Positions 13,601 through 61,387 of a DNA stretch of 64,000 nt are shown one piece after another. The notes under the pieces were generated by a model, which was given only the letters and a program-made list of their open reading frames with translations, ran no database searches and was not told where the DNA came from. Numbering within the stretch: the stretch's first letter is position 1; every line of letters begins with the position of its first letter. A program made the position numbers and the translations under genes. Origin of the DNA: Sulfurimicrobium lacus (GTDB lineage Bacteria > Pseudomonadota > Gammaproteobacteria > Burkholderiales > Sulfuricellaceae); NCBI RefSeq assembly GCF_011764585.1, contig NZ_AP022853.1:3257501-3321500 (forward strand). Direction: 5' to 3'.

Positions 13601-13797
13601 TCCTCGCCGAGACCATCCTCGTCGATGGATGAAAGCGTCACGCAGTTCTGCGACGCCGATGTCGATTCCAATTTCGAGGAGGTGACATCCGCCACGACCC
13701 ATTGGCGGCGGCGAACCTCGACCAGTTGGCCAGGCTCCGGGCGGGCGCGGTAGGTCTGGTGCTTCTGATCGTTTGAGATTTCCATACGGTCTGCCAT
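10651..13797 (-). CDS. drmD: DISARM SNF2-family helicase DrmD
   Basis: About 1048 aa from an ATG at 13797. SNF2/SWI2 helicase core with Walker A DDVGLGKTIEAG near residue 150, DEAH box (VVDEAHNIAP) near residue 265, and motif VI RNGRIDRHGQ in the second RecA lobe. DrmD defines class 1 DISARM and is normally adjacent to drmMI, as here. The frame is open further upstream (to 13926) but that would overlap vsr by 120 bases; starts just after the vsr stop at 13797, or at 13785 (MEISNDQ), fit an AGGAAG Shine-Dalgarno better. The exact choice between those two is uncertain. The gene ends in an ATGA overlap with drmMI. Confidence 0.88.
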   Translation of the reverse strand: MADRMEISNDQKHQTYRARPEPGQLVEVRRRQWVVADVTSSKLESTSASQNCVTLSSIDEDGLGEELEVIWEIEPGAQVIERAGLPSITGQDDSGTLEAFLDAVRWGAATNADRGFLQAPFRSGVSIEDFQLDPLVRAIDMARVNLLIADDVGLGKTIEAGLVIQEMLLRHRARTVLIICPASLQEKWRVEMLEKFGLEFRVVDTAYIKQLRRERGIHANPWTSHPRLIASMDWVKSGEGLRAMRDVLPPHAGHPRKFDLLVVDEAHNIAPAAGAHYALESQRTRFIRSISPHFQHRLFLTATPHNGYTESFTSLLELLDDQRFARNILPDEKQLSQVMIRRLKSDLVDADGKSLYAQRKLQALAVPYTAEEREIHQKLNDYCTSREKDAEQTGSTFGTSFVNQLLKKRLFSSPAAFASTLEKHIASVSNGAKPKVQDAMAERILRKAILKVDEDYANDQEVENAQSEAVEEASRRSQPLTQEQQRMLADLRQWAQRAKNQTDSKARAILDWLSANLKPGGQWNDRRVILFTEYRTTHQWMHEILASHGFGGERLGLLHGGLTQDEREPIKAAFQTSPKDSPVRILLATDAASEGIDLQNYCNCLIHLEIPYNPNVMEQRNGRIDRHGQRENEVLIWHPVDGGEKGHASVGGHGEDILRALRKLESMRADMGSVNPVIAPQMSGLIEGSLKDLDTRLAEAKIAKSRRFVRAERELKERVAKLHERLLATQQDFHLTPDHIQMAVKTGLALAGRPPLEPVAITGAPQSSVFRMPPLSGSWARCLEGLRHPHTQQIRPITFDHAVAKGRDDVVLVHLNHRLVQMCLRLLRAEVWAQDDVKKLHRITVRTLPDGSIEGPAVVVISRLVITGGNHHRLHEELTVSGGYLRDQSFRREEGVTRVQQWLDEAQPVTANDSLFDALRVRFDRAQQAILQTVDARSKDRLKFLANTLQARKQQEIDDIGAVLDELEKAIQSELKKDQQPEQLSLFTEDERTQLRRDTAALEARLARIPAERIQEVKAIETRYAKLDDRTFPVAVVFLVPKSAGGVA

Positions 13798-13805
13798 CTT
13801 CCTGT

Positions 13806-14276
13806 TCAGTTCTTCTTGTCTGCGCCAGCAGGCGGCGCACGGCGCTTCGCCATCGCGACCGTCTGTGCGGCAGTTTCTGCGGCTTCGATCGGTGATTGGT
13901 GTTCCCAGAATCGCAGCACCGTCCAACCGGCATCGAGCAGCCTCGAATTCGTGTCGGCGTCTCTGAGGCGATTCGTTTCGATCTTTTGCCGCCAGAACTC
14001 GGCGTTATGCTTCGGCCAGGTGGCGTGCTCGGGACATCCATGCCAGTAACACCCGTCCACAAACACCGCAATCTTGAGATCAGGAAATGCAATGTCGGCA
14101 ACTCTGCGGGGGCGTTTCAAAACCACGTAGTCGACACGGTAACGCAAGCCACGTCGATACAACTCCCTCCGTAATGCAAGCTCCGCTCCGGTTCCCTTCT
14201 GGCGAACCTTGGCCATTCGGCGGCTGGCTACAGGTGACGAGGGCTGTATGTGCGACACCGCGAGAGCCCCCGTCAT
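13806..14276 (-). CDS. vsr: Very short patch repair endonuclease (Vsr)
   Basis: 156 aa. Nicks DNA 5' of T:G mismatches that arise when 5-methylcytosine deaminates, so it repairs the mutational cost of a neighbouring Dcm-type methylase. The family signature VDGCYWHGCPEH (residues about 74-85), with its catalytic aspartate and zinc-binding histidine/cysteines, is intact, as is the N-terminal SRRMAKVRQKGTGAE segment equivalent to the usual start of Vsr proteins. The start lies 5 bases after the dcm stop and the stop lies 8 bases before drmD, placing a mismatch-repair nuclease physically between a methylase and the DISARM helicase. Length is normal for the family. Confidence 0.92.
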   Translation of the reverse strand: MTGALAVSHIQPSSPVASRRMAKVRQKGTGAELALRRELYRRGLRYRVDYVVLKRPRRVADIAFPDLKIAVFVDGCYWHGCPEHATWPKHNAEFWRQKIETNRLRDADTNSRLLDAGWTVLRFWEHQSPIEAAETAAQTVAMAKRRAPPAGADKKN

Positions 14277-14281
14277 TTGAT

Positions 14282-15328
14282 TTACCGATCCACTACTGAT
14301 GACAGGTGGGCATCGATGCTTTTCGCGATGGCACGTCCAAGATCTACTGGCACGGCATTGCCGATGAGTCGCCCCAAGGCAGTGAAGCTCACCTCGCCAT
14401 CATCAGGCACAAAGGCGTAGTCACGAGGGAAGCTCTGCAAGATCGCTGCCTCGCGCAATGAAATAGCGCGATCTTGCTCGGGGTGACCGAATCGACCATT
14501 GCCAAACCCGTAGCACTGCGTCGTCATGGTTGGGGCCGGCTTATCCCACTCCATACGGCCATAGACACCTGGATAGGTTCGACCACTCTCTACTCGATGA
14601 CAATCGGCAACGAGATGATCCGGCCAGTCGCGCCACGTACCTCCTGGTTTGGAGGCACGAATACGCTTCAGATTCTTTTCGGACAAAGACGAGCTCGCAT
14701 GCAATCTGTCACGAGGAGCCGCTTCGCCTGCCTGCAATGGTCTAAGGCGACCGATGGCCTGACGGACGGTCGAGGGCTTTGGGTGAGTTGGTTCGATCAT
14801 CTTGATCTCGCCATACTTTGATGCAAGCAAGACCATTCTCCGGCGCATTTGAGGCACGCCGTACTTGGAACTATCGACTACGTCGAACCAAACCTTGTAG
14901 CCAAGTCTCTTTAGGGTATCCACGAAATCATGGAACACGACGTGCTTTGCGACCGTTGGCACGTTTTCCATCGTAATGACGTCGGGGCTGGTTTGCTCCG
15001 CCAGCCGCGCGAAGTGGTACAGCAACCCCCACTTCCCGTCCTTACCGTCCAATTCGTAACGCTGAGCGTAGGTCGAGAATGGCTGGCATGGGGCACAGCC
15101 TGCAAGTATCTTCAAGTCGGCATCGCCAAACAATTCATTGAGTTCGTCCGCAGATACCTGACTGATGTCGCGTTCGACGAACTTCGCCTGATCATTGTTT
15201 GCTTCATAGGGAAATCGGCATGCCGGATCCATGTCGATGCCGGCAACCACCGGAATGCCTTCCAGAACGAAGCCGTGCGTCAGCCCCCCCGCTCCGCAAA
15301 AAAGATCAATACAAGCTATTTTTGACAT
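14282..15328 (-). CDS. dcm: DNA C5-cytosine methyltransferase
   Basis: 348 aa, type II-like C5-MTase. Conserved motifs appear in order: I DLFCGAGGLTHGF (residues 8-20), IV with the catalytic cysteine GCAPCQPFS (about 77-85), VI MENVPT (about 118), VIII QMRRRMVLL (about 158), and X IGNAVP near the C-terminus. All catalytic residues are present. It is the first large gene of the operon, preceded by a small HTH gene and followed by vsr. Class 2 DISARM uses a C5 methylase (drmMII), but this locus has the class 1 genes drmD and drmMI, so this enzyme is either an extra modification arm or an independent modification unit joined to DISARM. No cognate restriction enzyme is seen. Confidence 0.92.
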   Translation of the reverse strand: MSKIACIDLFCGAGGLTHGFVLEGIPVVAGIDMDPACRFPYEANNDQAKFVERDISQVSADELNELFGDADLKILAGCAPCQPFSTYAQRYELDGKDGKWGLLYHFARLAEQTSPDVITMENVPTVAKHVVFHDFVDTLKRLGYKVWFDVVDSSKYGVPQMRRRMVLLASKYGEIKMIEPTHPKPSTVRQAIGRLRPLQAGEAAPRDRLHASSSLSEKNLKRIRASKPGGTWRDWPDHLVADCHRVESGRTYPGVYGRMEWDKPAPTMTTQCYGFGNGRFGHPEQDRAISLREAAILQSFPRDYAFVPDDGEVSFTALGRLIGNAVPVDLGRAIAKSIDAHLSSVVDR

Positions 15329-35708: not shown

Positions 35709-37685
35709 TCAGGTCAGCCAGCGGCTGCGGATCAAACGACGTCCGCCATTGCGAACGCCAGAAACAGCGAGGCCACCTCTGTGGGTGGCCTCGGCATCGG
35801 GTACAGCGGATAAATCGGGGGGATCAGCGCTGGCGATCCCGAGTTGCTTTTCTAGTTCTCGCCAGTGCCGATCCTCAAAGCGATCGAGGCCGGAGGCTGC
35901 GGCAGCGGCCCGGGCATAGACGTAACAGTCGAGTGCTTCGTTACGCTCGCGCATCTTCTGCCACTCGCGGATGGCGAACCCGTTCCGGTCGCGCCGCGTA
36001 ATCAACTGCTCGGCACACAGTTGCTGCAGGAACTCGGCATCCACCTTGGGCAGATGGACGAAGCCGGCGGGGTAACGGATCGTCAGACCGTCCTCAGCCA
36101 CCTCTTGTGACTTCCGGAGGTTGTTGTAGAACTCCAGCTTGGCAATGCCACCGGCGACCGAGAACACCTTGATGCCCCGGCGCAGCTTCTTACCGCCTGA
36201 CGTGGCGTCGACAGCGGTCGGCGTGCCGACCAGGGCAGCGCCCCGAGCCACCCCTTTGACGGCCATCAGACGCGGGTCGCGCACACCCCGGACAAACGCA
36301 TAGGCTTCCTGAGTCGCGAAACCGGTATCCAGTGCCAAGCGACCCAGTCCAAGCTGGCATCCGGTTTCATGCGTCCAGGTTTCCCGCAGAACGCTGGCCA
36401 GTGCTTTCCACACCTCGTCGCGGGCCGTATCGCCCATCAACACGCGATGCTCGACCAGCCAGGACTCCTTACCTCTGCCAAAGGCCCACACCGAGACCTC
36501 GATGCGATCCTTCTGGACGTCGGCACCGGCGGTCAGCAGCAGGCCACCGACTGGGATGGTCCCGATCCGATAGTCCTCGCGGCGTTCCAGCAGTCGTTGC
36601 CAGTCAGGCGCTTCGCCTTCCTCGACCCAGGTCTCACCGAGTTCAGTATTCTTGAAGGTCTTGATCGCAGCGGCAGATCCGGCTTCCTTACTGATGGCAC
36701 TCTCCCAGGCGGCCGCGACATCTTTCCAACTGCGCCAGCCGATCGGGCTATACAAGCTCGACAAGTGGAAGCCTGCCGTGCGACTGGAGCCCTCGGCCAT
36801 TGCCCGCCATTCACCGTGTTCCAGCATCCAGGTTTTATGGTGCTCTGGAATAGGCACCTCACAGGATTCGCACACGTAGGCGGCGGTATCCGGAAAGTTG
36901 CCATCCTCACCACGCTCCCAGCGCAACTGCTCGAAGCGCAGCCATTGACGGTGACCACAGTGCGGACACGGCACGAAGTAGCGCCGCTGATCACTGGCCT
37001 CGTATTCCCGCTCGATGGTGCTGACACCGGCAATCGTTGGCGTCGACACAATGAATATCTTGCGCCGAGAAAACGTCCGGGTACGGGCCTCAGCCAGTGC
37101 TACGGCACTCCCTTCGCCATCGACGTCAATCGGATAACCATCGACCTCGTCGAGAAACAAGTAACGCACCGGCATCGAGCGCAGGCCGACCGCGCTGTTC
37201 GCTCCGGTCATCACCAGGACGCCACCGCGAAACTCCTTCGCCAGAATCGTGTTACCCGAGTCGCGGCTCCGGGCCGGCGCGATCAACTCACGCAAGATCG
37301 ACGATTCATCGATCAGCGGATCGATCCGCTGCTTGGAGTTGCGCTTGGCCATTTCCACTGTCGGCCAGACCGCCATCATTGGACCCGGCGCATGGTGAAT
37401 CACGTAGCCGATCCAGTTGCTGCCCATCTCGGTCGCACCCAGTTGGGCCGCTTTCATGAACACGACGCGCTCGACCGGCGAAGTCGGCGACAGGCAATCC
37501 ATGATGGCCTTCAGATACGGCGTGCGACTGGTGCGCCAACGGCCCGGTTCTGACGAAGCCTTGGAGGACAACATCCGGTGCCGATCCGACCATTCCGATA
37601 CCGATAGCAGCGGATCCGGGATAAGCCCCTCCCGCCAGGCCCGCTCGATATCAAGAGCGCCTTCGTACTCTTCCTGTTCCATCAA
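35709..37685 (-). CDS. Terminase large subunit (gpA family)
   Basis: 658 aa, lambda gpA type (PF05876). Packaging ATPase/nuclease that cuts concatemers and pumps DNA through the portal. Visible: ERVVFMKAAQLGATEMGSNW (adenine/Walker A region near residue 80), YLFLDEVDGYP (Walker B, near 172), zinc-finger-like CPHCGHRQW and VCESCEVP (near 240 and 270). Nuclease residues lie in the C-terminal third. Start overlaps the small-subunit stop (ATGA). Suggests cos-type packaging. Confidence 0.93.
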   Translation of the reverse strand: MMEQEEYEGALDIERAWREGLIPDPLLSVSEWSDRHRMLSSKASSEPGRWRTSRTPYLKAIMDCLSPTSPVERVVFMKAAQLGATEMGSNWIGYVIHHAPGPMMAVWPTVEMAKRNSKQRIDPLIDESSILRELIAPARSRDSGNTILAKEFRGGVLVMTGANSAVGLRSMPVRYLFLDEVDGYPIDVDGEGSAVALAEARTRTFSRRKIFIVSTPTIAGVSTIEREYEASDQRRYFVPCPHCGHRQWLRFEQLRWERGEDGNFPDTAAYVCESCEVPIPEHHKTWMLEHGEWRAMAEGSSRTAGFHLSSLYSPIGWRSWKDVAAAWESAISKEAGSAAAIKTFKNTELGETWVEEGEAPDWQRLLERREDYRIGTIPVGGLLLTAGADVQKDRIEVSVWAFGRGKESWLVEHRVLMGDTARDEVWKALASVLRETWTHETGCQLGLGRLALDTGFATQEAYAFVRGVRDPRLMAVKGVARGAALVGTPTAVDATSGGKKLRRGIKVFSVAGGIAKLEFYNNLRKSQEVAEDGLTIRYPAGFVHLPKVDAEFLQQLCAEQLITRRDRNGFAIREWQKMRERNEALDCYVYARAAAAASGLDRFEDRHWRELEKQLGIASADPPDLSAVPDAEATHRGGLAVSGVRNGGRRLIRSRWLT

Positions 37686-38227
37686 TCCACCCGAGGCCGC
37701 ATGTCGCCGAGCTCGATCAGGTGATCGCGCACGGCAGATTCCAGTGCGACGTGCAATTCATGGGCGTCGACTTCCAATTTGGCAGCCATCTCGGCCGATA
37801 TCCGGGCTGGCCAGTTGAGCCAGGCATCGCGCTCGGTACGTGCCAGCCTGAAAACGTGAGCGATGGCCTGTGATCGATCGACCAGATCACCCTTGAGTTG
37901 GGCGAGGCGCACCTTGTTGGTCTGCGCCTTGACGACTTCGTTGACGGTCCTGGCCTGTAACAGCGAGGTACCGCCTGCTGACAGCATCGGGGCGACAGGT
38001 TCGACCGGAGCACTTGCCGGGCGAATCGGTTCCGCTGCCGGCGAAGCGGTTTTTGCAGCGACTGGCTTGCGGGCCGCCACCGTGTTCTGTGCCCATTCGA
38101 GATCGGCGCGATTAGGTTCAATCGTGCCGTCTGCCTCCGGCGTGATGCGGCCGGTATCGATCGCCTTCTTGACTGCTACATGAGAGACGCCGCGATGGCG
38201 GGCGTAGGCGCGTATCGACAGACCCAT
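37682..38227 (-). CDS. Terminase small subunit (Nu1-like)
   Basis: 181 aa. N-terminal winged HTH (IRAYARHRGVSHVAVKKAID) recognises cos DNA; an alanine/proline-rich linker is followed by a helical oligomerisation part (VNEVVKAQTNKVRLAQLKGDL). First gene of the late operon, divergent from the plus-strand small-gene array. The overlap with the large subunit is standard. Confidence 0.85.
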   Translation of the reverse strand: MGLSIRAYARHRGVSHVAVKKAIDTGRITPEADGTIEPNRADLEWAQNTVAARKPVAAKTASPAAEPIRPASAPVEPVAPMLSAGGTSLLQARTVNEVVKAQTNKVRLAQLKGDLVDRSQAIAHVFRLARTERDAWLNWPARISAEMAAKLEVDAHELHVALESAVRDHLIELGDMRPRVD

Positions 38228-38275
38228 GATTTACATCAAGCCGATCGCAGAAGCTTTTAGACGTCGCGATTCAGT

Positions 38276-38307
38276 GCTTGGCTTTCCTCCAGAACAGCGC
38301 GTTCATG
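38276..38307 (+). repeat. Leader repeat copy 1
   Basis: GCTTGGCTTTCCTCC followed by AGAACAGCGCGTTCATG. Ends 33 bases before the ATG of the 59-aa gene. Part of a five-copy family (see findings). Confidence 0.85.
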
Positions 38308-38340
38308 CAATCACCATCAACCATCCTGAAGGAGATTGAC

Positions 38341-38520
38341 ATGAGTTACCCAATCAAAGCCCAGGTCGGCGATTACATCCGCATCGACGGGCGCGTACTG
38401 CGCGTCGTGTTTGTGAATGATCGAGACGAGCAACCCGAGTACGAACTGGAAAACGGCAGTTGCATCGGCAACCGCGATTTCAGCTACGACGACGTCCTCC
38501 TCGAATCCGAGGTGCGCTGA
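38341..38520 (+). CDS. Small phage/plasmid protein, unknown (array gene 1)
   Basis: 59 aa, compact beta-rich sequence (VGDYIRIDGRVLRVVFVND then a tyrosine/acidic tail). GGAGATTGAC precedes the ATG. The repeat lies 33 bases upstream. An SH3-like fold is imaginable, but the gene is not recognised. Plus strand, divergent from the terminase genes. Confidence 0.7.
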   Translation: MSYPIKAQVGDYIRIDGRVLRVVFVNDRDEQPEYELENGSCIGNRDFSYDDVLLESEVR

Positions 38521-38527
38521 AAGACCT

Positions 38528-38554
38528 GAAGCCAAGCAGGAATAGCTTGGCTTC
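38528..38554 (+). repeat. Perfect 10-bp inverted repeat joined to leader repeat 2
   Basis: GAAGCCAAGC, 7-base loop AGGAATA, GCTTGGCTTC. The right arm is the first 10 bases of repeat copy 2. No T tract follows, so it is unlikely to be a simple terminator; in the RNA the hairpin would start the leader of the second array gene. Confidence 0.8.
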
Positions 38555-38576
38555 ACTCTTGAACAGCGCGTTCATG
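38545..38576 (+). repeat. Leader repeat copy 2
   Basis: GCTTGGCTTCACTCT followed by TGAACAGCGCGTTCATG; the second part includes the inverted arms TGAAC/GTTCA. Ends 33 bases before the next ATG. Confidence 0.9.
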
Positions 38577-38609
38577 TCATCACCATCAACGACGTCCAAG
38601 GAGACACAC

Positions 38610-38807
38610 ATGAGCAAGCAAACCCATCAAGTCAACCAAGCTCTCGAAACCCTGCTCCAGCAGATCGCACTGGACCACCTGTTCATCGAAACCCTGGAAA
38701 CCCGCAACAGCGACCGGATGGACTTCCACGAGGTCAGTGTCTGGGGCGTCAAGAGCGCCCTGATGGCGGCCTACGAGGCGGGCCGACAGGCCGCGAAGCA
38801 GGCCTGA
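38610..38807 (+). CDS. Small DUF6900-like protein (array gene 2)
   Basis: 65 aa, mostly helical: LETLLQQIALDHLFIETLET, RMDFHEVSVWGVKSAL, ending in an alanine-rich helix. Similar small proteins with the FHEVSVWxVKxAL segment are common in prophages and mobile elements of proteobacteria. AAGGAGACAC precedes the start; leader repeat at fixed distance upstream. Confidence 0.75.
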   Translation: MSKQTHQVNQALETLLQQIALDHLFIETLETRNSDRMDFHEVSVWGVKSALMAAYEAGRQAAKQA

Positions 38808-38823
38808 AATAGAAGCGGAAAGC

Positions 38824-38855
38824 GCTTGGCTTCACTCTCGAACAGCGCGTTTATG
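38824..38855 (+). repeat. Leader repeat copy 3
   Basis: GCTTGGCTTCACTCTC followed by GAACAGCGCGTTTATG (one change in the right arm). Ends 33 bases before the next ATG. An upstream AAGCG/CGCTT hairpin is present as well. Confidence 0.9.
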
Positions 38856-38888
38856 GCCACACCATCAACCACCCAGAAGGAGCATCAA

Positions 38889-39437
38889 ATGACCACCATC
38901 CAACTGAGCCATGCCCAGCACGCCATCCTCGCCTACGCCATAGAACACACCGGCGGCAAGATCGAATGGTTCCCTGACAACATTAAGGGCGGTGCCCGCA
39001 CCAAGGTGCTGGAGGGCCTGTTCAACAAGGCCCTGGTCACCCGCGACAGCACCGACTGGTTCGTCGCCGCCGAGGGCTACGACGCCCTGGGGCGCGCACG
39101 ACCGACGCCGGCGGCCATTCACCCCGACCCGGAGGTTGAGGCCGCCGTGTCGGCGGCTGAAGCCAACTGGGCGCAAGAAAAGCAGGACGCGGCAAAACGC
39201 CTGCTTAAGCTCGGCGTCGAGGGCAAGCCTCGCACCCGTGAGAACAGCAAGCAGGCCACCGTGATCCAGATGCTGCAGCGCCCCGAGGGCGCCACCATCA
39301 GCCAGATCTGCGCGGCCACCGGCTGGCAAGCCCACACAGTACGCGGCACCTTTGCCGGTGCCTTCAAGAAAAAACTCGGGCTCAACCTTGCCTCCGAGAA
39401 GCCCGAAGGCAGCGAGCGCATCTACCGGATCGTCTGA
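38889..39437 (+). CDS. DUF3489 protein (array gene 3)
   Basis: 182 aa. The C-terminal 80 residues carry the DUF3489 signature: RTRENSKQATVIQMLQRPEG, ATISQICAATGWQAHTVRG, GAFKKKLGLNLASEK, a winged-helix-like DNA-binding domain. The N-terminal half contains another helical region (LSHAQHAILAYAIEH). DUF3489 proteins are frequent in mobile elements; the role is unknown, transcription control is plausible. AAGGAG lies upstream of the ATG. Confidence 0.85.
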   Translation: MTTIQLSHAQHAILAYAIEHTGGKIEWFPDNIKGGARTKVLEGLFNKALVTRDSTDWFVAAEGYDALGRARPTPAAIHPDPEVEAAVSAAEANWAQEKQDAAKRLLKLGVEGKPRTRENSKQATVIQMLQRPEGATISQICAATGWQAHTVRGTFAGAFKKKLGLNLASEKPEGSERIYRIV

Positions 39438-39491
39438 CCGGAACCGGGGTGGCGACACGCGCCGCCGCCCCCAAATAAAGATTCAGAATGC

Positions 39492-39523
39492 CCTTGGCTT
39501 CTCAATCAAACAGCGCGTTCATG
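39492..39523 (+). repeat. Leader repeat copy 4
   Basis: CCTTGGCTTCTCAATCA followed by AACAGCGCGTTCATG. Ends 35 bases before the next ATG. Confidence 0.9.
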
Positions 39524-39558
39524 TGGGTGTCGAAACAATCCACTGAATGGAGACCATC

Positions 39559-40023
39559 ATGAGCACCAGCATCCACGCACGCTTTACCCGCAAGCCCTGC
39601 AGCATCGACGAGGTTCATCACAACAGCGATCCAAGTGCACCGCCCGAGGTCATCACGATCGAGTTCCGCAAGGAGCTGACCGAAACCGAGTACGACGCCT
39701 TCGCCAACACTCTGTTGGAAGACCGCGATTGGCTGGCAGGACGTGGCGGCCATGCTGATGGTCACCGACGTGTGGTCGAAGTCAGCGCCCCCGGCCGCAC
39801 CACGCTCTACGTCGATCCCTCCGGCAGCAGCTACGGGCGTTACGTCGGGGTGGCGATCGAGTCGCCGACACCCAGCAACGACCAGGCCAGCGCGATTCGC
39901 TGGCTGCTCGACAATCGCCGGCCCGAAGTCAGCATCGATCAGGCGCTGCGCACCCTGCGCATCGCATTGTGCTGCGACGCCGGTGCCATGGAATTGCTCG
40001 ACCAAATCGCCTCGGAAAAATGA
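39559..40023 (+). CDS. Unrecognised protein (array gene 4)
   Basis: 154 aa, acidic, no membrane segment. The centre (DWLAGRGGHADGHRRVVEV, TLYVDPSGSSYGRYVG) is well structured and occurs in a context of similar plasmid/prophage proteins, but no family function is known. ATGGAGACC precedes the ATG. Same strand and leader as its neighbours, suggesting a cassette-like origin. Confidence 0.7.
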   Translation: MSTSIHARFTRKPCSIDEVHHNSDPSAPPEVITIEFRKELTETEYDAFANTLLEDRDWLAGRGGHADGHRRVVEVSAPGRTTLYVDPSGSSYGRYVGVAIESPTPSNDQASAIRWLLDNRRPEVSIDQALRTLRIALCCDAGAMELLDQIASEK

Positions 40024-40044
40024 TTCAGATTTCTGCGATGAAGA

Positions 40045-40076
40045 GCTTGGCTTCTCAATCAAACAGCGCGTTCATA
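40045..40076 (+). repeat. Leader repeat copy 5
   Basis: GCTTGGCTTCTCAATCA followed by AACAGCGCGTTCATA. Ends 35 bases before the next ATG. Almost identical to copy 4. Confidence 0.9.
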
Positions 40077-40111
40077 CGGGTGTCGCAACGATCAACCCGA
40101 AGGAGATAACG

Positions 40112-40489
40112 ATGACCACCCAGCAAAACATCCCCGCCAGCCAGAACGACGCCTGGGGCTTTTTTGGCACGATGAACGACACCGCCGCAGCCGCCTGGCC
40201 GATCGCGATGACCGCAATTTCGGATGCCACCTACCAGCCCCTCGAATCGGTCAGGCTGTTCCTCGACAGCCGCCACGGACGCCACTTTGCCGACGACGTC
40301 CTCAACGAGATGCTCCGGGGCCACACGATCCAGCAAGCCATCGACGCCGCAGTAACGCGGTGGATGGGCTGGACGATTGGCCGGAAGACCAGCAAGGACT
40401 ACGGCATCCCCAAGGGGCTACCTTACCTGACTGGCTTCGTGATCCACTGCGAAGTGACCGACGAGTCCTTCGAAGCCGAAGCAGCGTAA
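40112..40489 (+). CDS. Unrecognised protein (array gene 5)
   Basis: 125 aa with WGFFGTMND at the N-terminus and HFADDVLNEMLRGHTIQQAI then YLTGFVIHCEVTDESFEAE. Sequences of this look occur in integrative elements, but the function is not known. GAAGGAGATAACG precedes the ATG. Followed 10 bases later by the last array gene, which has no repeat of its own. Confidence 0.7.
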   Translation: MTTQQNIPASQNDAWGFFGTMNDTAAAAWPIAMTAISDATYQPLESVRLFLDSRHGRHFADDVLNEMLRGHTIQQAIDAAVTRWMGWTIGRKTSKDYGIPKGLPYLTGFVIHCEVTDESFEAEAA

Positions 40490-40499
40490 GGAGATTACC

Positions 40500-40706
40500 A
40501 TGGCCGCCGTCGTCACCACCCCGCAACTCGAAGCCAACTACGACAAGTTCATCGCCGAACTGACCAAGCTCACCCGCAAGTACGGCGTGGCAATCCAGTC
40601 AGTCGGCGGGGTCATCCTCGCCGATGACCCCGGCGAATTCGGCAACGTCACTTACTGCGCCGACATCACCAGCGGCGACCTCCTGCCGGAGTTCCCCACC
40701 GACTGA
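40500..40706 (+). CDS. Unrecognised small protein (array gene 6)
   Basis: 68 aa (MAAVVTTPQLEANYDKF at the start, GVAIQSVGGVILADDPGEF in the middle). AAGGAG lies 6 bases before the ATG, in the end of gene 5, so the two are translationally linked. Its last 108 bases overlap the 3' end of the minus-strand methyltransferase gene in the opposite direction. Confidence 0.65.
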   Translation: MAAVVTTPQLEANYDKFIAELTKLTRKYGVAIQSVGGVILADDPGEFGNVTYCADITSGDLLPEFPTD

Positions 40707-41945
40707 CAGCGCGTCGAACGCCACGCCATCGGACTGCCTGATGGCCTTCGCCCCGGCATAGTCCTGCCAGCGGCGAACGATCACATCGACGTACTTCGGA
40801 TCCAGTTCGATCAGCCGCGCCTTGCGGCCCGACTTATGCGCCGCGATCATCGTGGTGCCCGACCCACCGAAGGGATCCATCACCACATCACCCGGGCGAC
40901 TGGAATTACGGATGGCCCGTTCCACCAGTTCCACCGGCTTCATGGTCGGGTGCAGATCGTTCTTCTGCGGCTTCTTGATCTGCCAGACATCGCCCTGGTC
41001 ACGGTCGCCGCACCAGTGACGATCGGCGCCCTCGGGCCAGCCGTAGAGAATCGGTTCGTACTGACGCTGATAGTCGGCACGCCCCAGGGTGAAAGTATTC
41101 TTGGCCCATATAACGAAGGTGGACCAGTGGCCACCCGCCGCACGGAACGCCGCCTGCAAGCGGTCCAGTTCGCTCGACGACATGGCCACGTAGATGCCAC
41201 CCTGGCAATGCGCCACGGTGGGCGTCAGTGCGGCCAGCAAGAAATCGTAGAACCCGTCACCGAGGTTGTCGTTGAGGATCGCGCGGTCCTTGCCGCGCAT
41301 TTTGTCCTTGGCCGAGTTGGCGTAATTGACGTTGTACGGTGGATCCGTAAATACCATGTCGGCGATCTCGTCGCCCAGTAAAGCTGCGTAGGCATCGGCA
41401 TCAGTCGAGTCCCCGCAGAGCACACGGTGCTCCCCGCAGAGCCAGACATCGCCTGCCCTGGATACAACGGGGCCAGTGTCTTCCGGAATGGAATCTTCGT
41501 CGGTATCGCCTTCGGTGGTTGTTTCCTCACCGGCGAGCAGGTCGGCCAGGGCATCGGCATCGAAGCCGGTCAGGGACAGATCGAAGTTGTCATCCTGCAG
41601 TGCGGCCAGTTCGACCTGGAGCATGGCATCGTCCCAGCCGGCGTTTTCGGCAATCCGATTATCCGCGATTACCAGGGCGCGATGCTGCGTCGGTGTCAGG
41701 TGATCAAGGATCACAACTGGAACGACAGCGATGCCGAGTTTCTGGGCTGCAGCCAGACGGCCATGCCCGGCCACGATGACGCCATCACCACCGGCCAGGA
41801 TCGGATTGGTGAAACCGAACTCGGCAATCGACGCGGCGATCTGCGCCACTTGAGCATCCGAATGCGTCCGGGCATTGCGTGCATAGGGCACCAGCTTGGC
41901 AGTCGGCCACTGCTCGATCTTGTCGGCCAGCCACGAAATCGTCAT
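40599..41945 (-). CDS. ParB-like/DNA methyltransferase fusion (DPPY type)
   Basis: 448 aa. Residues 1-110 form a ParB/Srx-like nuclease fold (PYARNARTHSDAQV, VAGHGRLAAAQKLG), the rest is a type II DNA methyltransferase: catalytic motif IV DPPYNVNY (about residue 199), FxGxG-equivalent motif I PFGGSGTTMIAA near residue 375, with HPTMKPVELV between them. DPPY suggests adenine-N6 or cytosine-N4 methylation. It overlaps the second methylase by 4 bases. The last 36 residues are encoded antisense to the plus-strand gene at 40500 and extend beyond the usual family end. Confidence 0.9.
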   Translation of the reverse strand: MTISWLADKIEQWPTAKLVPYARNARTHSDAQVAQIAASIAEFGFTNPILAGGDGVIVAGHGRLAAAQKLGIAVVPVVILDHLTPTQHRALVIADNRIAENAGWDDAMLQVELAALQDDNFDLSLTGFDADALADLLAGEETTTEGDTDEDSIPEDTGPVVSRAGDVWLCGEHRVLCGDSTDADAYAALLGDEIADMVFTDPPYNVNYANSAKDKMRGKDRAILNDNLGDGFYDFLLAALTPTVAHCQGGIYVAMSSSELDRLQAAFRAAGGHWSTFVIWAKNTFTLGRADYQRQYEPILYGWPEGADRHWCGDRDQGDVWQIKKPQKNDLHPTMKPVELVERAIRNSSRPGDVVMDPFGGSGTTMIAAHKSGRKARLIELDPKYVDVIVRRWQDYAGAKAIRQSDGVAFDALSVGGELRQEVAAGDVGAVSDVAEFAGVIGEDDPAD

Positions 41946-43336
41946 GCGGGTGCTCCCAATCGTTCTGCGGCAACCGCACCATAGGTCTGCCCAGTGATCA
42001 CCAGCGTGACCGGCACCTCCGGGAAATTCTGCTGGAAACGTTTGATGGTCACATCAACATACTCGGGCGCAATCTCGGTGGCCCGCACTACGCGGCCAGT
42101 GCGTTGCGCAGCAAGCAGCGTGGTGCCTGATCCACAGAATGGTTCGAACACGATGTCGCCGGCGTCGGTGTAGGTTTCCAGAATGTGCTCTGGTAGTGCC
42201 ACCGGGAATACCGCCGGGTGATCGATGTCCTGTCCGATCTTTCCCTTGTGCCGCATGATGCGAATCACGGAATCCGGAATCTTGGTGTCCTGCGTGGGCG
42301 TGCCGGCAGCTGTCCAGCCACCAATCGTTCCATTTTTTTTGCGCATGGCCGTGGAACTGCCGTCCTTGCGTAGATGCGTTTCCTGACCCGCAAACTTGCA
42401 GGGCATGATCTTGTTGGCCTGCCGTGCCTGGCGGTTGAAGTGGAAGACAAACTCGAACGACGGTGCCAGCCGACCATTCCAGTCGCCAGGCAATCCTGGC
42501 CCCTGGTCCCAGACGTACCAGGCAAAACGCCGCCAGCCCTGCGTGCGCATCCAGTCGAGCCAACCATCCCAGTAGGGTATGACCTCGTTGTCGCGATGGA
42601 TCAGCCCAAGATTGACCAGCACCTGGCCGTTCGGAGTCATCGGCAGGTTGGAGAAAACGCCGCGCATCAGGGCATCCCAATCAATGATGGTGTTCGTGTA
42701 GTCCCGCTGGTTGCCGTAGGGCGGCGAGGTGAAGCACAGCGCAGCCTTGTCGTCGGCCATCAAGGCTGCAACCACACTGGAGTCGGCAGCATCCCCGCAG
42801 ATCACGCGGTGCGCACCCAGTTGCCAGACGTCACCAGGACGCGATACCGGATTGACCGGCGTATCAGGTACCTCGTCGGCAGCATCGTCGGAATCAGCCG
42901 AGGACTCCTCGGCCGTTCCTTCCCCACCATCCACCAGTAAGTCTTCAATTTCCTCGTTGGTGAATCCGGTCAGCGTCAGGTCATAACCTGACTCCGTAAG
43001 TTCCGCCAGTTCGGCGGCGAGCATCTCTTCATCCCATCCCGCATCGAGTGCCAGGCGGTTGTCAGCGATTACATAGGCGCGCTTCTGTGACGGCGAGAGG
43101 TGGCCGAGTTCGATGACCGGCACCTCGGACAGGCCGAGCTTGCGCGCAGCGGCCAGGCGACCGTGGCCGGCAATGATGCCGTGGCTGCCATCCACCAGGA
43201 GCGGGTTGGTCCAGCCGAATTCAACGATGCTGGCCGCGAGCTTGGCGACCTGCGCCTCGGAATGCGTGCGCGGATTGCGGGCGAACGGGATCAGCGTCTC
43301 GACCTTCCGGTATTCGACGTTCAAGGTTTGGGTCAT
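41942..43336 (-). CDS. ParB-like/DNA methyltransferase fusion (SPPY type)
   Basis: 464 aa from ATG 43336; an in-frame TTG three codons earlier falls at the end of a terminator-like hairpin. N-terminal ParB-like domain (PFARNPRTHSEAQVAKL, IAGHGRLAAARKLG) plus methyltransferase with motif IV SPPYGNQRDY (near residue 230) and motif I EPFCGSGTTLLAAQ near residue 405. SPPY is typical of cytosine-N4 enzymes. No cognate nuclease is present, so with the DPPY partner it probably protects phage DNA from restriction. Confidence 0.9.
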   Translation of the reverse strand: MTQTLNVEYRKVETLIPFARNPRTHSEAQVAKLAASIVEFGWTNPLLVDGSHGIIAGHGRLAAARKLGLSEVPVIELGHLSPSQKRAYVIADNRLALDAGWDEEMLAAELAELTESGYDLTLTGFTNEEIEDLLVDGGEGTAEESSADSDDAADEVPDTPVNPVSRPGDVWQLGAHRVICGDAADSSVVAALMADDKAALCFTSPPYGNQRDYTNTIIDWDALMRGVFSNLPMTPNGQVLVNLGLIHRDNEVIPYWDGWLDWMRTQGWRRFAWYVWDQGPGLPGDWNGRLAPSFEFVFHFNRQARQANKIMPCKFAGQETHLRKDGSSTAMRKKNGTIGGWTAAGTPTQDTKIPDSVIRIMRHKGKIGQDIDHPAVFPVALPEHILETYTDAGDIVFEPFCGSGTTLLAAQRTGRVVRATEIAPEYVDVTIKRFQQNFPEVPVTLVITGQTYGAVAAERLGAPA

Positions 43337-43343
43337 GGAATGC

Positions 43344-43367
43344 AAAAACCCGCCACAGTTGGCGGGT
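43344..43367 (-). terminator. Hairpin/terminator directly before the methylase start
   Basis: ACCCGCC, 6-base loop, GGCGGGT, followed on the minus strand by TTTTG. It is positioned 8 bases before the ATG of the SPPY methylase, and GGCGGG of its 3' arm is the best Shine-Dalgarno candidate. It may terminate transcription arriving from the upstream gene or hide the ribosome site. Confidence 0.6.
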
Positions 43368-51805: not shown

Positions 51806-52069
51806 TCACTTCGCCACGCGCTCGGAGGTCGAGTCGTGCAGGGCGCTATATTCGAAGTCGATGACGGCTTCGAGGGGATAGCTGACTCGCTTCGACAACT
51901 TGAGGTAGCGAGGTCCGCGACCTTCGCTGCGCCAGCGCTGCAAAGTTTTGGGGCTGACACCCCAACGCTGTGCGAGCTCGTTTTCGTTCAGGACCCGGCG
52001 GTCGCCAGGTGCCAGGCTAGTGATCGCCGGGTGGGACGACCGAGGGATGTTGCTTGCCGGTGTCGGCAT
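51806..52069 (-). CDS. HTH DNA-binding protein (excisionase/MerR-like)
   Basis: 87 aa from ATG 52069 (a second ATG at 52081 is possible). ELAQRWGVSPKTLQRWRSEG is a clear helix-turn-helix followed by the wing KRVSYPLEAVIDFE. First gene of the early operon, so it may control it; the same fold serves as recombination directionality factor, which fits an element with a serine recombinase next door. Confidence 0.75.
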   Translation of the reverse strand: MPTPASNIPRSSHPAITSLAPGDRRVLNENELAQRWGVSPKTLQRWRSEGRGPRYLKLSKRVSYPLEAVIDFEYSALHDSTSERVAK

Positions 52070-52248: not shown

Positions 52249-52734
52249 TCAGTTCGCGAACCCCAGCGCTTTGCGTTGCTCGCCCCAATCACGTGGCAGT
52301 TGGTCACGGCGGCCACGCAAGGTGTGAAGATTCAGGTCACGTGGCTGGCGGCCGTCAAGGACGGACTCGATGATGTCCGGTGCCAGCGTGGTCAAGCGCA
52401 AAACTTCCGCCACCCAACCCGGCTCGAGCTTCAACGATCGGGCCAAGTCATTCGCGGTGGGATAGCGCCCCTCATCGAGCAATCGCTGCCAGTAGAAAGC
52501 TTTGCCCAACATCCTGATCATCGGCAGATCGTGGCCACCGGCACCCAGCACCGAGTCATCACCGGTCGGCGGAATCATGACCTTGCGATTCTGCTTGCGG
52601 CGGATGGTGAGCGGCACCACCGTCACCCGCTGTTGGCCAGTGGTGTAGTTGCGGGCATCGCCGCCGATGTCGATACGAACCATCCTCAGCCGTGGATTGT
52701 CGGCCTTCATGGCTGGTTTGCTTGGTTGCCTCAT
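52249..52734 (-). CDS. HTH protein linked to the serine recombinase
   Basis: 161 aa. A central helix-turn-helix (PTANDLARSLKLEPGWVAEV) lies in a region that resembles the KorB/ParB-like DNA-binding core (LRLTTLAPDIIESVLDG). The N-terminal part is basic. ATG overlaps the recombinase stop (ATGA). Such proteins regularly accompany DUF2924 and large serine recombinase genes and may direct the recombination reaction. Confidence 0.72.
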   Translation of the reverse strand: MRQPSKPAMKADNPRLRMVRIDIGGDARNYTTGQQRVTVVPLTIRRKQNRKVMIPPTGDDSVLGAGGHDLPMIRMLGKAFYWQRLLDEGRYPTANDLARSLKLEPGWVAEVLRLTTLAPDIIESVLDGRQPRDLNLHTLRGRRDQLPRDWGEQRKALGFAN

Positions 52735-54149
52735 GCGAACGCCTCCTCCGTGGATCCCTTCATCTCCTCGACCAATGGGTGTGCGGCAATGTCAGCCTCC
52801 AGGCCGAGCCAACCATCCTCGCGCCAAAGAATGTCCAGTCCTTGCCCGTGCAGTTGGATGCGCTCAATCAGCAGTTGGGTGATGCGCTGCTGCTCGATCG
52901 GAAAGAGTTGTTCCCACACTGCGCCGATGCGTTGCATGGCAATCACCACATGCGCCTCATCGAGATCGGCGCCCGCAGCATGCCTCTGGCAAGCACGCCA
53001 CGTGGCAACCAAAATCTCTGGTGAGCGCAGGACCAGATGGATCTGTTCCAGAACAGCAGCCTCGATCTCTGCGGCGGGCAGCGCACCGACATCCGTAGCC
53101 CCCGGTTGCAGCGTGGCTCCGGCATTTCGCCGCTTGTGCAGATAGGGCACGTAATAGCGATAGAGGCGTCCGTTTTTCTTCTTGGTGAAATGGTGGATCA
53201 TGCGCTGCCCATCGGGCGCAAACAGCAGACCCGCCAGCAGTGCCGGGTGTTCGGTGCGGTGCTCACGCGGGCCCTGCTTCCGCCGTTCGATGAAGGCGTG
53301 GGCGGCATTCCAAAGTTCCTGAGAAACGATGGCTTGGTGTTGCCCTCGATAACTCTCGCCCTTGTGCACCATCTCGCCAAGGTAGATGCGGTTGCGCAGC
53401 ATGGCGAACAAGTATTGCTGATCGATCGTGCGACCAGGGCGATGCAGACCACCCTGCGTGATCCAGGACTTCGTGGTGTGGCCCTCGATGGCAAGTTCGC
53501 GCACAAGCTGCGCCGCCGAACCATGCTCGGCATATCGGCAGAAGATGCCGCGCACCAGTTCGGCCTCGGCGGCATTGACGACAAGTTTGCGCTCGACAAC
53601 GTCGTACCCAAGAGGTGGCATACCGCCCATCCACATGCCTTTGGCCTTGCTCGCGGCAATCTTGTCGCGGATGCGCTCGCCGGTGACCTCGCGCTCGAAC
53701 TGCGCGAAAGACAGCAGGATGTTGAGTGTGAGCCGCCCCATGGAGGTGGTGGTATTGAACTGCTGGGTGACGGAAACGAACGACACCCCGTTGCGATCGA
53801 ACACGTCGACCAGTTTGGCGAAATCCGACAAGGCCCGGGTTAAGCGATCGATTTTGTAGACCACGACGATATCGACCTCACCGGCCTCGATATCGGCCAT
53901 GAGACGTTTGAGCCCGGGACGATCCAAATTGCCACCGGAGTAGCCTCCGTCGTCGTAGCCATCGCCAACGGCAACCCAGCCCTCGTGGCGCTGGCTGGCG
54001 ACAAATGCCAAGCCGGCATCCCGCTGCGCTTCCAGGCTGTTGTATTCCTGGTCCAGTCCCTCGTCGGTGGATTTGCGCGTATAGATGGCGCAGCGTTTTT
54101 TGGGGACGATAGGCTGCGAAGGCGTCGCCATGGTGCGGTTCGCTCTCAT
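52731..54149 (-). CDS. Large serine recombinase
   Basis: 472 aa from ATG 54149, which overlaps the DUF2924 stop (ATGA). Resolvase N-terminal domain with the nucleophilic serine in AIYTRKSTDEG (near residue 23), YDDGGYSGGNLDRPGLKRL and VYKIDRLTRAL, then a recombinase domain (GIFCRYAEHGSAAQLVRELA) and a zinc-ribbon-like/coiled C-terminal part. Such enzymes integrate and excise phages without host factors. It is the only integrase-like gene in the window and therefore the best candidate for prophage integration. Confidence 0.88.
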   Translation of the reverse strand: MRANRTMATPSQPIVPKKRCAIYTRKSTDEGLDQEYNSLEAQRDAGLAFVASQRHEGWVAVGDGYDDGGYSGGNLDRPGLKRLMADIEAGEVDIVVVYKIDRLTRALSDFAKLVDVFDRNGVSFVSVTQQFNTTTSMGRLTLNILLSFAQFEREVTGERIRDKIAASKAKGMWMGGMPPLGYDVVERKLVVNAAEAELVRGIFCRYAEHGSAAQLVRELAIEGHTTKSWITQGGLHRPGRTIDQQYLFAMLRNRIYLGEMVHKGESYRGQHQAIVSQELWNAAHAFIERRKQGPREHRTEHPALLAGLLFAPDGQRMIHHFTKKKNGRLYRYYVPYLHKRRNAGATLQPGATDVGALPAAEIEAAVLEQIHLVLRSPEILVATWRACQRHAAGADLDEAHVVIAMQRIGAVWEQLFPIEQQRITQLLIERIQLHGQGLDILWREDGWLGLEADIAAHPLVEEMKGSTEEAFA

Positions 54150-54616
54150 GCTGCCTCCTGCTTGCTGCGTGTCTTGAGTCCAAAAAATAGCGGGCCTGAC
54201 CATGGGCATCCGGTAATCACCTTGGCCACCGCCGTCAGGCTCGTGAAACGCTGCCCCCGGTATTCAAAGTCGCGCACGCCGCGCACCAGAACATGGTGTT
54301 CGACATCATCATAGATGCGCGTCAGGATGGTGCCCGGCAGGAGACGATCAGCTTCGCGCTGAAGATTCTTGGGTAGCACTCCGGTCTCGCCAATGCTCTC
54401 CAGTTTGCGCCGTACCGATACCTTGAAACCGCCGAAAGCCCGCTCCTGGAGCTTGTAAGCCAGTCGGCTCTCCAGCCAGGTACGGTGATGATGATTCGGT
54501 CGCTGATCGAAATGCTCGTCCCACAATGCCCAGAGGCTATCCATGGGCAGCAGGGGAAGTTGAGCGATTCGAGCCGAGACCGTTGCTGTATCGGGCAGGG
54601 GTGCGTGTGTCGTCAT
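54146..54616 (-). CDS. DUF2924 protein
   Basis: 156 aa from ATG 54616. Family blocks: SLWALWDEHFDQRPNHHHR, RTWLESRLAYKLQERAFGG, GTILTRIYDDVEHHVLVRG, GQRFTSLTAVAKVITG followed by NGP-type end (SGPLFFGL). DUF2924 proteins are the usual partner upstream of this type of serine recombinase. Function unknown, probably DNA binding. Confidence 0.88.
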   Translation of the reverse strand: MTTHAPLPDTATVSARIAQLPLLPMDSLWALWDEHFDQRPNHHHRTWLESRLAYKLQERAFGGFKVSVRRKLESIGETGVLPKNLQREADRLLPGTILTRIYDDVEHHVLVRGVRDFEYRGQRFTSLTAVAKVITGCPWSGPLFFGLKTRSKQEAA

Positions 54617-54944
54617 GGGCGAACTCCTTCTTGCTGATTGGGGTTCGCATTCACGCGCTGTGGGTGGGAGAAGCCAAGGCAAACCGGCTCTCTACGACCA
54701 GATTTATCTGGATCGTCTGAAGCTGAATTTCTGGCGCGCAGTCGCAGCAGTGCTGCAGAGAGCAAGTCGGCGATTTCTTGGTGCGCGTGTCGGGGGCTTG
54801 GGGTCCCCCGGTCGATAGCGATGAGTTCGATGTCGTACATGATGGCAAGCGTTCCATGAGGTAACGCTGCTCATGCTATGAACCGAAGGCACTTCGCGTA
54901 ACGTGATTTAGCGGGCGTGCGCGGAAAGCAGGAAGGTAACTGAT
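54617..54944. other. Intergenic region before the recombinase trio
   Basis: No supported gene. Contains the inverted repeat CCAGAT-TT-ATCTGG at 54698-54711, a possible operator about 85 bases upstream of the DUF2924 start. The region probably contains the promoter for the recombinase trio. It also marks the change from phage to the defence-like genes to the right and may include an attachment site. Confidence 0.35.
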
Positions 54945-60139: not shown

Positions 60140-61387
60140 ATGTTCGGAAGAGGTATCGATAAAAGCAAAGGCCTGCTTTTCTGCACCCACGATCTCAGCC
60201 AATCGCTACGCAACACAGCTGACGAAATATGCCGGGAGATCGAAAGCCTTCAACCCGACAGGTTGCTGAACACAGCACCCGACGATCTAAAAAACTATCT
60301 GGCGGCAAAGTACCGTGTGGAGCCGATCAGCCTTTTACGCGATCAATGGTACGCCGATCATCACGAAACACAGGTCGATGTTCGCTATGACTCCAGCCGA
60401 TGGATCGACGACAAGAGTCGCCCGTGCATGGTACCCGGAGAGCGTGTCGTGGTGCGCGTGCCCTTCGAGGGCGAGGCAGAGTTGTTCTACGCTCAGCCCA
60501 ATACCTCGACTTCAAATCCACCGCGCGCGATTATCGAGAAGAACGAGCTAGTACTTCGCTACGACTCGCCTGCCGACGCACCGCGTGATGTCAGACCGTT
60601 GATCGATCGCACGTTGGCAGATATTGAGCAATACCTCGGATGGCAACGCCCGATGATTGACACGCACAACAACGGGCTGTCCGTCATCGCCGAGCAAGCG
60701 ATCCAGCAACGTCGAGATCGACTGTTGGCCCAATCCCAGCGGGCGGCGTCTCTCGGCATCCCAGTCAAGCGACGCGATGACGCCCCTAAGACATACGCAA
60801 TACCAACAGCGCGCAAAAGGGCGATTCCTGCGCTTCCCCCTGCGAGTGCTGCGCCTTTCACCCCAGAGCCGACCTGGGCGATGGAGCAGTACGAGCAGGC
60901 GCTCAAGATCATGCAAGACATGACGCTCGTTATGGAACGCAGCCCTGATGCCTTTAAGACAATGGATGAAGAAGCGTTGCGGCAGCACTTTCTCGTTCAA
61001 CTCAACGGCCAATTTGAGGGCAAGGCCACGGGCGAGACGTTCAATATGTCGGGTAAGACCGACATCCTGCTGCGTGAGGGCGAACGCAATGTTTTTATTG
61101 CCGAGTGCAAATTCTGGAAGGGTCCGAAGGCCTTTGGAGAGGCGATCGACCAACTCTTGAGCTACGCCACATGGCGGGACGGCAAGACAGTAATCCTGGT
61201 GTTCAATCGCGGTACGGAAATGGCAACGGTACGTACAGGCGTTGATGCAAGTGCCAAGGCACACGGCAACTTCAAGCGAACGGTGAACTGGCCTCACGAG
61301 AGTGGATTCCGCTACGTGTTCCATGCAAATGGCGATACCAACCGCGAGTTGATCGTGACAGTGCTCGTTTTCCACGTGCCGAAGTGA
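60140..61387 (+). CDS. PD-(D/E)XK nuclease-like protein
   Basis: 415 aa. The C-terminal 120 residues contain the nuclease core: GKTDILLREGERN followed by VFIAECKFWKGPKAFG (D..E-x-K) and IDQLLSYATWRDGKTVILVF. The N-terminal 250 residues (THDLSQSLRNTADEICREI and others) are unrecognised. This layout is shared by Mrr-type restriction-like proteins in defence islands. It ends just before the attachment region at tRNA-Phe. Base composition is lower in GC than in its neighbours, so it may have arrived separately. Confidence 0.75.
   Translation: MFGRGIDKSKGLLFCTHDLSQSLRNTADEICREIESLQPDRLLNTAPDDLKNYLAAKYRVEPISLLRDQWYADHHETQVDVRYDSSRWIDDKSRPCMVPGERVVVRVPFEGEAELFYAQPNTSTSNPPRAIIEKNELVLRYDSPADAPRDVRPLIDRTLADIEQYLGWQRPMIDTHNNGLSVIAEQAIQQRRDRLLAQSQRAASLGIPVKRRDDAPKTYAIPTARKRAIPALPPASAAPFTPEPTWAMEQYEQALKIMQDMTLVMERSPDAFKTMDEEALRQHFLVQLNGQFEGKATGETFNMSGKTDILLREGERNVFIAECKFWKGPKAFGEAIDQLLSYATWRDGKTVILVFNRGTEMATVRTGVDASAKAHGNFKRTVNWPHESGFRYVFHANGDTNRELIVTVLVFHVPK

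Follow-up and report, generated by a model that had tools for sequence, protein, structure and literature searches.

A bipartite leader element, probably a promoter, recurs before unrelated small genes in prophages

The middle promoters of phage T4 form a phage-specific promoter set with a dedicated factor, MotA. Integron gene cassettes are defined by attC sites and the IntI tyrosine integrase, and the IS10 transposase is subject to fold-back inhibition. As for repeats placed before genes, Cluster K mycobacteriophages carry Start-Associated Sequences, termed SAS and ESAS, before many unrelated genes, and their role is left undetermined in the part of the paper available to us (PMC3203893). The repeats of Cluster O phages, judging by the available excerpt, are the contrast case (PMC4351075). 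Finally, morons are described in the accessible text as accessory prophage genes transcribed independently of other phage genes (PMC6469090). Here we describe a leader element found in a 64,000-nucleotide stretch of the Sulfurimicrobium lacus chromosome (NZ_AP022853.1, positions 3,257,501 to 3,321,500, forward strand). This whole stretch, hereafter the window, is part of a 3.83 Mb single-contig genome and contains a prophage; positions are counted from its first letter. On balance we favour reading the leader as a promoter specific to mobile elements, reused nearly unchanged before many unrelated genes in one large family of temperate phages and related islands.

Five copies of the leader, all on the plus strand, lie at 38276–38307, 38545–38576, 38824–38855, 39492–39523 and 40045–40076, where an original prediction made from the letters alone had placed them. 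They have in common a bipartite element, CTTGGCTT-N7-NNNCAGCGCGTNNAT(G/A). The gaps between the end of the 32-mer and the ATG are 33, 33, 33, 35 and 35 bases (ATGs at 38341, 38610, 38889, 39559 and 40112), and the genes that follow are indeed unrelated, with no family, DUF6900, DUF3489, a weak match to phrog_21303 and the phrog_8020 family. In terms of exact letters, the predicted repeat holds overall, with departures in copy 1 (GCTTGGCTTT), copy 3 (ends TTTATG, with a GTTTAT core), copy 4 (begins CCTTGGC) and copy 5 (ends TTCATA, where CATA is the core end). The CACCATCAAC-like stretch expected after the leaders follows copies 1 to 3 and is missing after copies 4 and 5, and AAGGAG is found after copies 1, 2, 3 and 5, with TGGAG instead after copy 4. 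As predicted, the sixth gene (40500) has no copy; it starts 10 nt past the end of gene 5. The leader extends beyond 38276–40706, with a sixth copy on the minus strand (54648–54678, read from 54678) ahead of a DUF2924-serine recombinase operon.

We pooled 436 unique copies from loci in IMG/VR, named genome contigs, phage AcaML1, the S. lacus genome and the window. With the first C of CTTGGCTT as index 0, the conserved parts are CTTGGCTT (0–7), a weakly conserved 7-base spacer, NNNCAGCGCGT (15–25), T at 29 and A or G at 30, and further a pyrimidine at 35 and C at 38. The 16-base strict pattern, CTTGGCTT-N10-CAGCGCGT, has 12 copies in the S. lacus genome, 10 on the plus and 2 on the minus strand. 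It is not a chance pattern, because these 12 matches stand against 0 for the reversed control, which also gave 0 in each of 369 genomes.

When spacings of 4 to 9 were allowed between head and core, all 256 exact-head matches had a spacing of 7. These loci had partly been selected by the same letters, and therefore two less biased tests were anchored on proteins. Among homology-anchored genes within the loci, 414 of 511 score at least 14 matches over the 18 positions, a mark also reached by 6 of 400 pieces drawn at random from these loci; the spacer is 7 in 412 of the 414, with ties broken in favour of 7. For the second test, relatives of the gene 5 product, encoded in 498 IMG/VR stretches, were fetched by protein similarity only, and the best 80 were taken (71–99% identity, some contigs shared with the pooled set). 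Two had too little upstream sequence; all 78 that were scored have the element with a spacer of 7, 76 of them at 16–18 and 2 at 13 of 18 positions.

Within the 10–79 nt examined downstream, a start codon with a good Shine-Dalgarno sequence follows 346 of the 436 copies, at 24–48 nt in 336 and at 11–68 nt in the others. The fixed distance to the ATG that had been claimed is true of the window array (33–35) and is relaxed elsewhere, to 24–48 nt in most copies. Random distances from genes, or identity with a known repeat, would have spoken against a leader. Neither was seen: the distances are not random, and Rfam searches of window 37600–41200 and 10 loci returned only sub-threshold matches, none at or above the gathering score. 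The picture is of one motif that precedes many unrelated genes of the same element and faces their start codons, as in a phage- or element-specific regulon.

Three further features were rejected as parts of the element. In the core, a hairpin or palindrome of the form GAAC-N5-GTTC is broken by the variants GACC, CCAC, GTTC and GCAC. An upstream open reading frame from the core ATG does not keep its frame, and by eye the ATG becomes ATA, CTA or ATC in other copies. Lastly, a dyad over the head is frequent in internal array copies only. This dyad, GAAGCCAAGC-loop-GCTTGGCTTC, lies upstream of leader copy 2 at 38529–38554 (plus strand) and is found before 43 of 173 internal leaders against 3.8 expected; it may be a structure at the 3' end of the gene before it.

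A search of bacterial and phage genomes, suggested with the original prediction, found the element before many other small genes, mostly in prophages. Within the host class, the strict pattern occurs in 16 of the 369 genomes searched. Four of these (G009, G036, G123 and G300) were judged chance matches from the match letters only, which leaves 12 element-bearing genomes. A scan of named genomes gave at least 119 stretches, by title mostly from Burkholderiales, Rhodocyclales, Lysobacterales and relatives; among the matches listed, two stretches belong to Nitrospira defluvii, and several single matches outside Proteobacteria look like chance. As for virus records, all selected by the core, 34 of 35 carry 1–8 strict copies with 0 in reversed controls; the remaining record (G750, locus L036) has a chance 16-mer without head and was left out. 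A common layout in these records is one copy near the DUF2924 end and an array beside the terminase, and some also have one distal copy, ahead of a 96-amino-acid protein of no known family. Among INPHARED phages, queried with the array and leader 4, three AcaML1 records were the only good matches, and plasmids queried with leader 5 only gave no convincing match. In total we estimate that the element stands ahead of some 25–30 gene families unrelated to one another, chiefly in beta- and gammaproteobacterial prophages. Protein clusters 27, 28, 31, 33 and 37 of 38 were left out as chance or ill-defined, and some of the remaining singletons are fragments of larger families.

Diverged leaders occupy the same place before DUF2924 genes that have no strict pattern (L278, L279, L283, L286, L290 and L302). 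By eye, another head, CTGGATAA, precedes DUF2924 in distant genomes (L306 and L317), CTGGATA-type heads precede DUF3489 in L351, L356 and L357, and a CGGGGCTT-like head precedes some DUF3489 genes; other-head loci include L333, L338, L341, L350 and L353. Heads can be common to DUF2924 and DUF3489 genes. The CTGGATAA-like and CGGGGCTT-like heads are a lead towards lineage-specific versions of the leader.

A promoter function of the element is likely. The hexamers TTGGCT and GTTCAT are 17 bp apart, within the 16–18 bp range of sigma-70 promoters, and 17 bases is the optimum for sigma-70-type holoenzymes. In copy 1 they lie at 38278–38283 and 38301–38306, with a predicted +1 near 38313, and in copy 6 TTGGCT (54677–54672) is paired with GTGAAT (54654–54649). 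Among 282 non-redundant copies the second hexamer is GTTCAT in 217, GTTACT in 26 and GTGAAT in 18, although many loci had been selected by GTTCAT. AT-rich peaks are found about 5, 16 and 26 bases before the head, separately in DUF2924, first-in-array and internal-array copies. Their aligned periodicity exceeds all 1000 rolled controls, and in 29 of 32 families the peaks stand over the valleys, at positions that had themselves been derived from these data. UP-element subsites are known to lie near -41, -52 and -62.

In such a promoter TTGGCT would be the -35 element, the conserved block NNCAGCGC-GTTCAT would cover the -10 region together with its extension at the usual distance of 17 bp, and the AT-rich blocks, at about -41, -52 and -62, would act like UP-element subsites. 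Transcription is predicted to start about 36 bases past the first C of CTTGGCTT, which would leave a short 5' leader with the Shine-Dalgarno sequence; the presumed -1 and +1 positions are C or T at index 35 in 98% and A or G at index 36 in 77% of copies (weighted). The off-consensus -10 and the strong conservation of the extended block suggest that an activator or a special sigma factor would be needed. Single array genes, or pairs like genes 5 and 6, would then each form a transcription unit of their own, exchangeable as a promoter-plus-gene cassette. In terms of the joint control proposed earlier, the part that stands is something like a phage-specific promoter, supported by spacing and AT pattern and predicted from sequence.

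The factor was sought in the 12 element-bearing genomes, 20 element-negative genomes hand-picked from the 353 without a match, and 34 virus records, many of them fragments. DUF3489 is present in 8 of 12 element-bearing genomes, 0 of 20 negatives and 32 of 34 records. The HTH_17 profile matches 10 of 12, with 0 strong and 2 weak matches (near 1e-9) in the negatives, and 22 of 34 records. DUF2924 is found in 10 of 12, 0 of 20 and 19 of 34, and also in 10 other host-class genomes without the strict pattern. The fourth family, DUF6362, is in 8 of 12 and 31 of 35 records, with 0 of 20 negatives over the cut-off and one match below it; it was rejected as a universal factor, being found neither in AcaML1 nor in 4 of the 12 genomes. 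The DUF3489 and HTH_17 proteins are candidate factors, and neither is present everywhere. In the window these are the product of gene 3 (38889–39437, plus strand, 182 amino acids, PF11994) and, as the alternative candidate regulator, an HTH_17-like homolog of AcaML1 gp9 (51806–52069, minus strand). The structural model of DUF3489 has a modest pTM of 0.40 and matches winged-helix folds weakly (best E 0.024); a search of the PDB gave no match with E < 0.001.

Tentatively, the element could be a dedicated transcription module, in which an activator or sigma-like factor encoded by the element reads a single standard promoter. Any gene that gains the promoter would become a plug-in cassette, common to phages, recombinase islands and defence-associated gene pairs in many genera, and the lineage-specific heads (CTGGATAA or CGGGGCTT) would have co-evolved with the factor.

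Several observations weigh against a promoter. A scan of 38150–40760 found 0 consensus sigma-70 promoters. The second hexamer retains T at -7 and lacks A at -11 and T at -12, so that it departs from the sigma-70 consensus. The best sigma-70 match within the leader averages 7.02 of 12 and reaches 8 or more in 9 of 282 leaders, and the stretch just upstream reaches this mark in 21 of 282. The AT peaks are broader in the c9 copies and partly displaced in c5, which fits less well, and they could also reflect curvature or upstream gene ends. Furthermore, 97 of the 511 homologous genes have no match of 14 or more positions, mostly DUF3489 (54 of 130) and cluster 4 (20 of 54). No candidate factor is present in all 12 genomes, and two of them with one copy each (G007 and G262) are without all four families. 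Finally, the DUF2924 leaders show RNA-like pairing, described below, that would be superfluous for a pure promoter.

A repressor or activator binding site over ordinary promoters would account for the long invariant bipartite sequence with its fixed spacing, and helix-turn-helix proteins encoded by the element co-occur with it. We find such an operator improbable as the main role, since the spacing fits promoter geometry, the array has no consensus promoter and the core is not a conserved palindrome (GACC, CCAC and GTTC variants before AGCGCG).

The pairing in question raises the alternative of an RNA leader, in which the element would lie inside the 5' untranslated RNA and control translation or mRNA stability through a protein, a small RNA or an alternative structure. 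The DUF2924 core can pair with the start region in letters that differ by lineage (GCGTTCAT/ATGAACG, GCGTG/CACGC and GCCTTCAT/ATGAAGGC, by eye and folding), and in the window an inverted repeat, GCGAACCCC / GGAGTTCGC (54619–54648, minus strand), encloses the Shine-Dalgarno sequence. Over 37 DUF2924 leaders, 10.74 pairs are expected against 4.75 with the arm shuffled. Families 6, 9, 10 and 12 pair well too, and in some copies the better sigma-70-like match is upstream of the leader rather than within it. The support for DUF2924 pairing is moderate, however, because in 25 sampled leaders the own arm gives 11.00 pairs and arms borrowed from foreign families still reach 8.76. In families 0 and 1, which are the largest, the own arm forms fewer pairs than foreign arms do. 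RNAalifold found no consensus pair in a sequence alignment of 21 DUF2924 leaders (23 non-redundant ones minus L174, L176 and L242 of odd layout, plus the window copy). The element loci have no Rfam match at the gathering score, as given above, the 7-base spacer is invariant in length, and the head dyad of the internal copies is found in 1 of 33 DUF2924 and 0 of 26 c5 or c9 copies. Altogether, we consider an RNA leader unlikely as the general explanation.

Within the promoter reading, a DUF2924 hairpin is possible as an addition in some families, and not as a shared function of the element. In the DUF2924-recombinase operon, the -10/+1 region may double as the 5' arm of a hairpin that covers the ribosome-binding site. 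The predicted start is inside or after this arm, so that only read-through transcripts would form the whole hairpin; these would be shut, and the short transcript would be without the arm. A DUF2924-specific opening of the start region on loss of the arm was rejected: the modelled rise in unpaired fraction from 0.35 to 0.47 does not exceed that of all other families taken together (0.51 to 0.61).

The array genes are exchanged as cassettes, judging from sequence comparison, with edges often near the leaders. When 319 loci were compared against the window array, 123 of 348 deduplicated BLAST segment ends fell in leader zones, against 60.9 expected by length, which bears out the cassette-wise replacement proposed at the start. 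Gene exchange in related elements was likewise borne out. Locus L031 is alike up to leader 1, at leaders 2–4 and from leader 5 onward, with genes 1 and 4 replaced, and in L075 and L122 gene 1 is replaced. Other frequent segment ends are the gene 3 stop and a point late in gene 5, and the order of families in the array is largely conserved.

These swaps between conserved leaders, the roughly twofold enrichment of segment ends and the serine recombinase encoded in the same element could suggest that the repeat is mainly a site for shuffling cassettes, as a target of the recombinase or of homologous exchange. We regard this as very improbable: ends are also frequent at the stop of gene 3 and towards the end of gene 5, the family order is mostly kept, solitary genes and the recombinase operon have the element upstream as well, and where two loci differ in the gene only, BLAST segments would end near the conserved leader anyway. 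As for how the cassettes arose, the data fit recombination at the repeat and joint acquisition of gene and leader alike.

All six array genes are on the plus strand. Gene 1 (38341–38520) encodes 59 amino acids with no family match above the cut-off. Gene 2 (38610–38807, 65 amino acids) is DUF6900 (PF21841), and it is followed by the DUF3489 gene described above. Gene 4 (39559–40023, 154 amino acids) has the weak phrog_21303 match. Gene 5 (40112–40489, 125 amino acids) has an all-helical model with no PDB match at E < 0.001, and gene 6 (40500–40706) encodes 68 amino acids. An NCBIfam search of the six proteins gave no match. The order of genes 5 and 6 recurs in phage AcaML1 (gp28 and gp27), where no leader was found between them.

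The array is preceded by the terminase (35709–38227) and followed by two ParB-like and methylase genes (40599–43345). Further prophage genes are a D5-type primase-helicase, a Bro-N protein, an AAA protein, the HTH_17-like protein and the operon at 52731–54616, in which the DUF2924 gene behind leader copy 6 (54146–54616, minus strand, PF11149) is followed by the large serine recombinase (52731–54149, minus strand, Resolvase and Recombinase domains). A second, related prophage lies about 70 kb away on the same chromosome, with its own leader array and DUF2924 copy (G000:C1 3226684–3228854; L001, L005 and L334).

Defence-like genes are found at and beside the prophage. PADLOC reports drmMI-like and drmD-like genes (DISARM class 1 type), a Vsr-like nuclease and a C5 methyltransferase at the prophage end (6311–15328, minus strand), and beside the prophage a strong match to the candidate defence protein PDC-S54 (60140–61387, plus strand, E 1.9e-164). 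In other loci, by eye, a leader-bearing two-gene unit of a short protein and DUF3489 is divergent from type III restriction-like genes (L165) or DISARM-like genes (L184). The 96-amino-acid gene with the distal leader was examined by eye in two loci; in L137 its neighbours are a patatin and nucleotidyltransferase pair, in L112 a type I restriction-like set. An anti-defence or early role of the array genes would be conjectural, and the defence genes near leader cassettes are only suggestive.

The element is real and widespread. It is apparently undescribed, a provisional judgement, as the open-access literature searched gave no description of it. By sequence alone it marks accessory genes of a common, little studied prophage family, and in a few loci some of these genes adjoin restriction-, DISARM- and CBASS-like systems. 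Should it prove to be a dedicated promoter, it would give a direct handle on the timing of cargo gene expression, and a test case for phage promoter standardisation that enables gene exchange.

In terms of known systems, T4 middle promoters are alike in having one off-consensus promoter motif before many unrelated genes; in contrast, the elements here are temperate, the motif crosses many hosts and the factor is known only as candidates. The predicted hairpin resembles IS10 fold-back inhibition in that it would block translation of read-through transcripts only, although here it belongs to DUF2924-recombinase operons. For comparison with integron cassettes, the recombinase found in the element is of the serine type. 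As in the morons of the accessible account (PMC6469090), accessory genes with their own control are found between phage operons, but here they share one non-consensus element across unrelated genes and phages. Finally, SAS and ESAS are similar, as far as the available part of that paper goes, in that a conserved repeat stands before unrelated phage genes, mostly in one orientation, with an extended part that varies by phage subcluster (PMC3203893). By eye, SAS, 13 bp of GGGATAGGAGCCC immediately before the start, differs from the leader in sequence and distance. ESAS is a 17 bp imperfect inverted repeat from another host phylum, for which the same portion describes no 17 bp two-hexamer geometry. 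The element reported here is bipartite, lies mostly 24–48 nt from the start codon and is found in many host genera.

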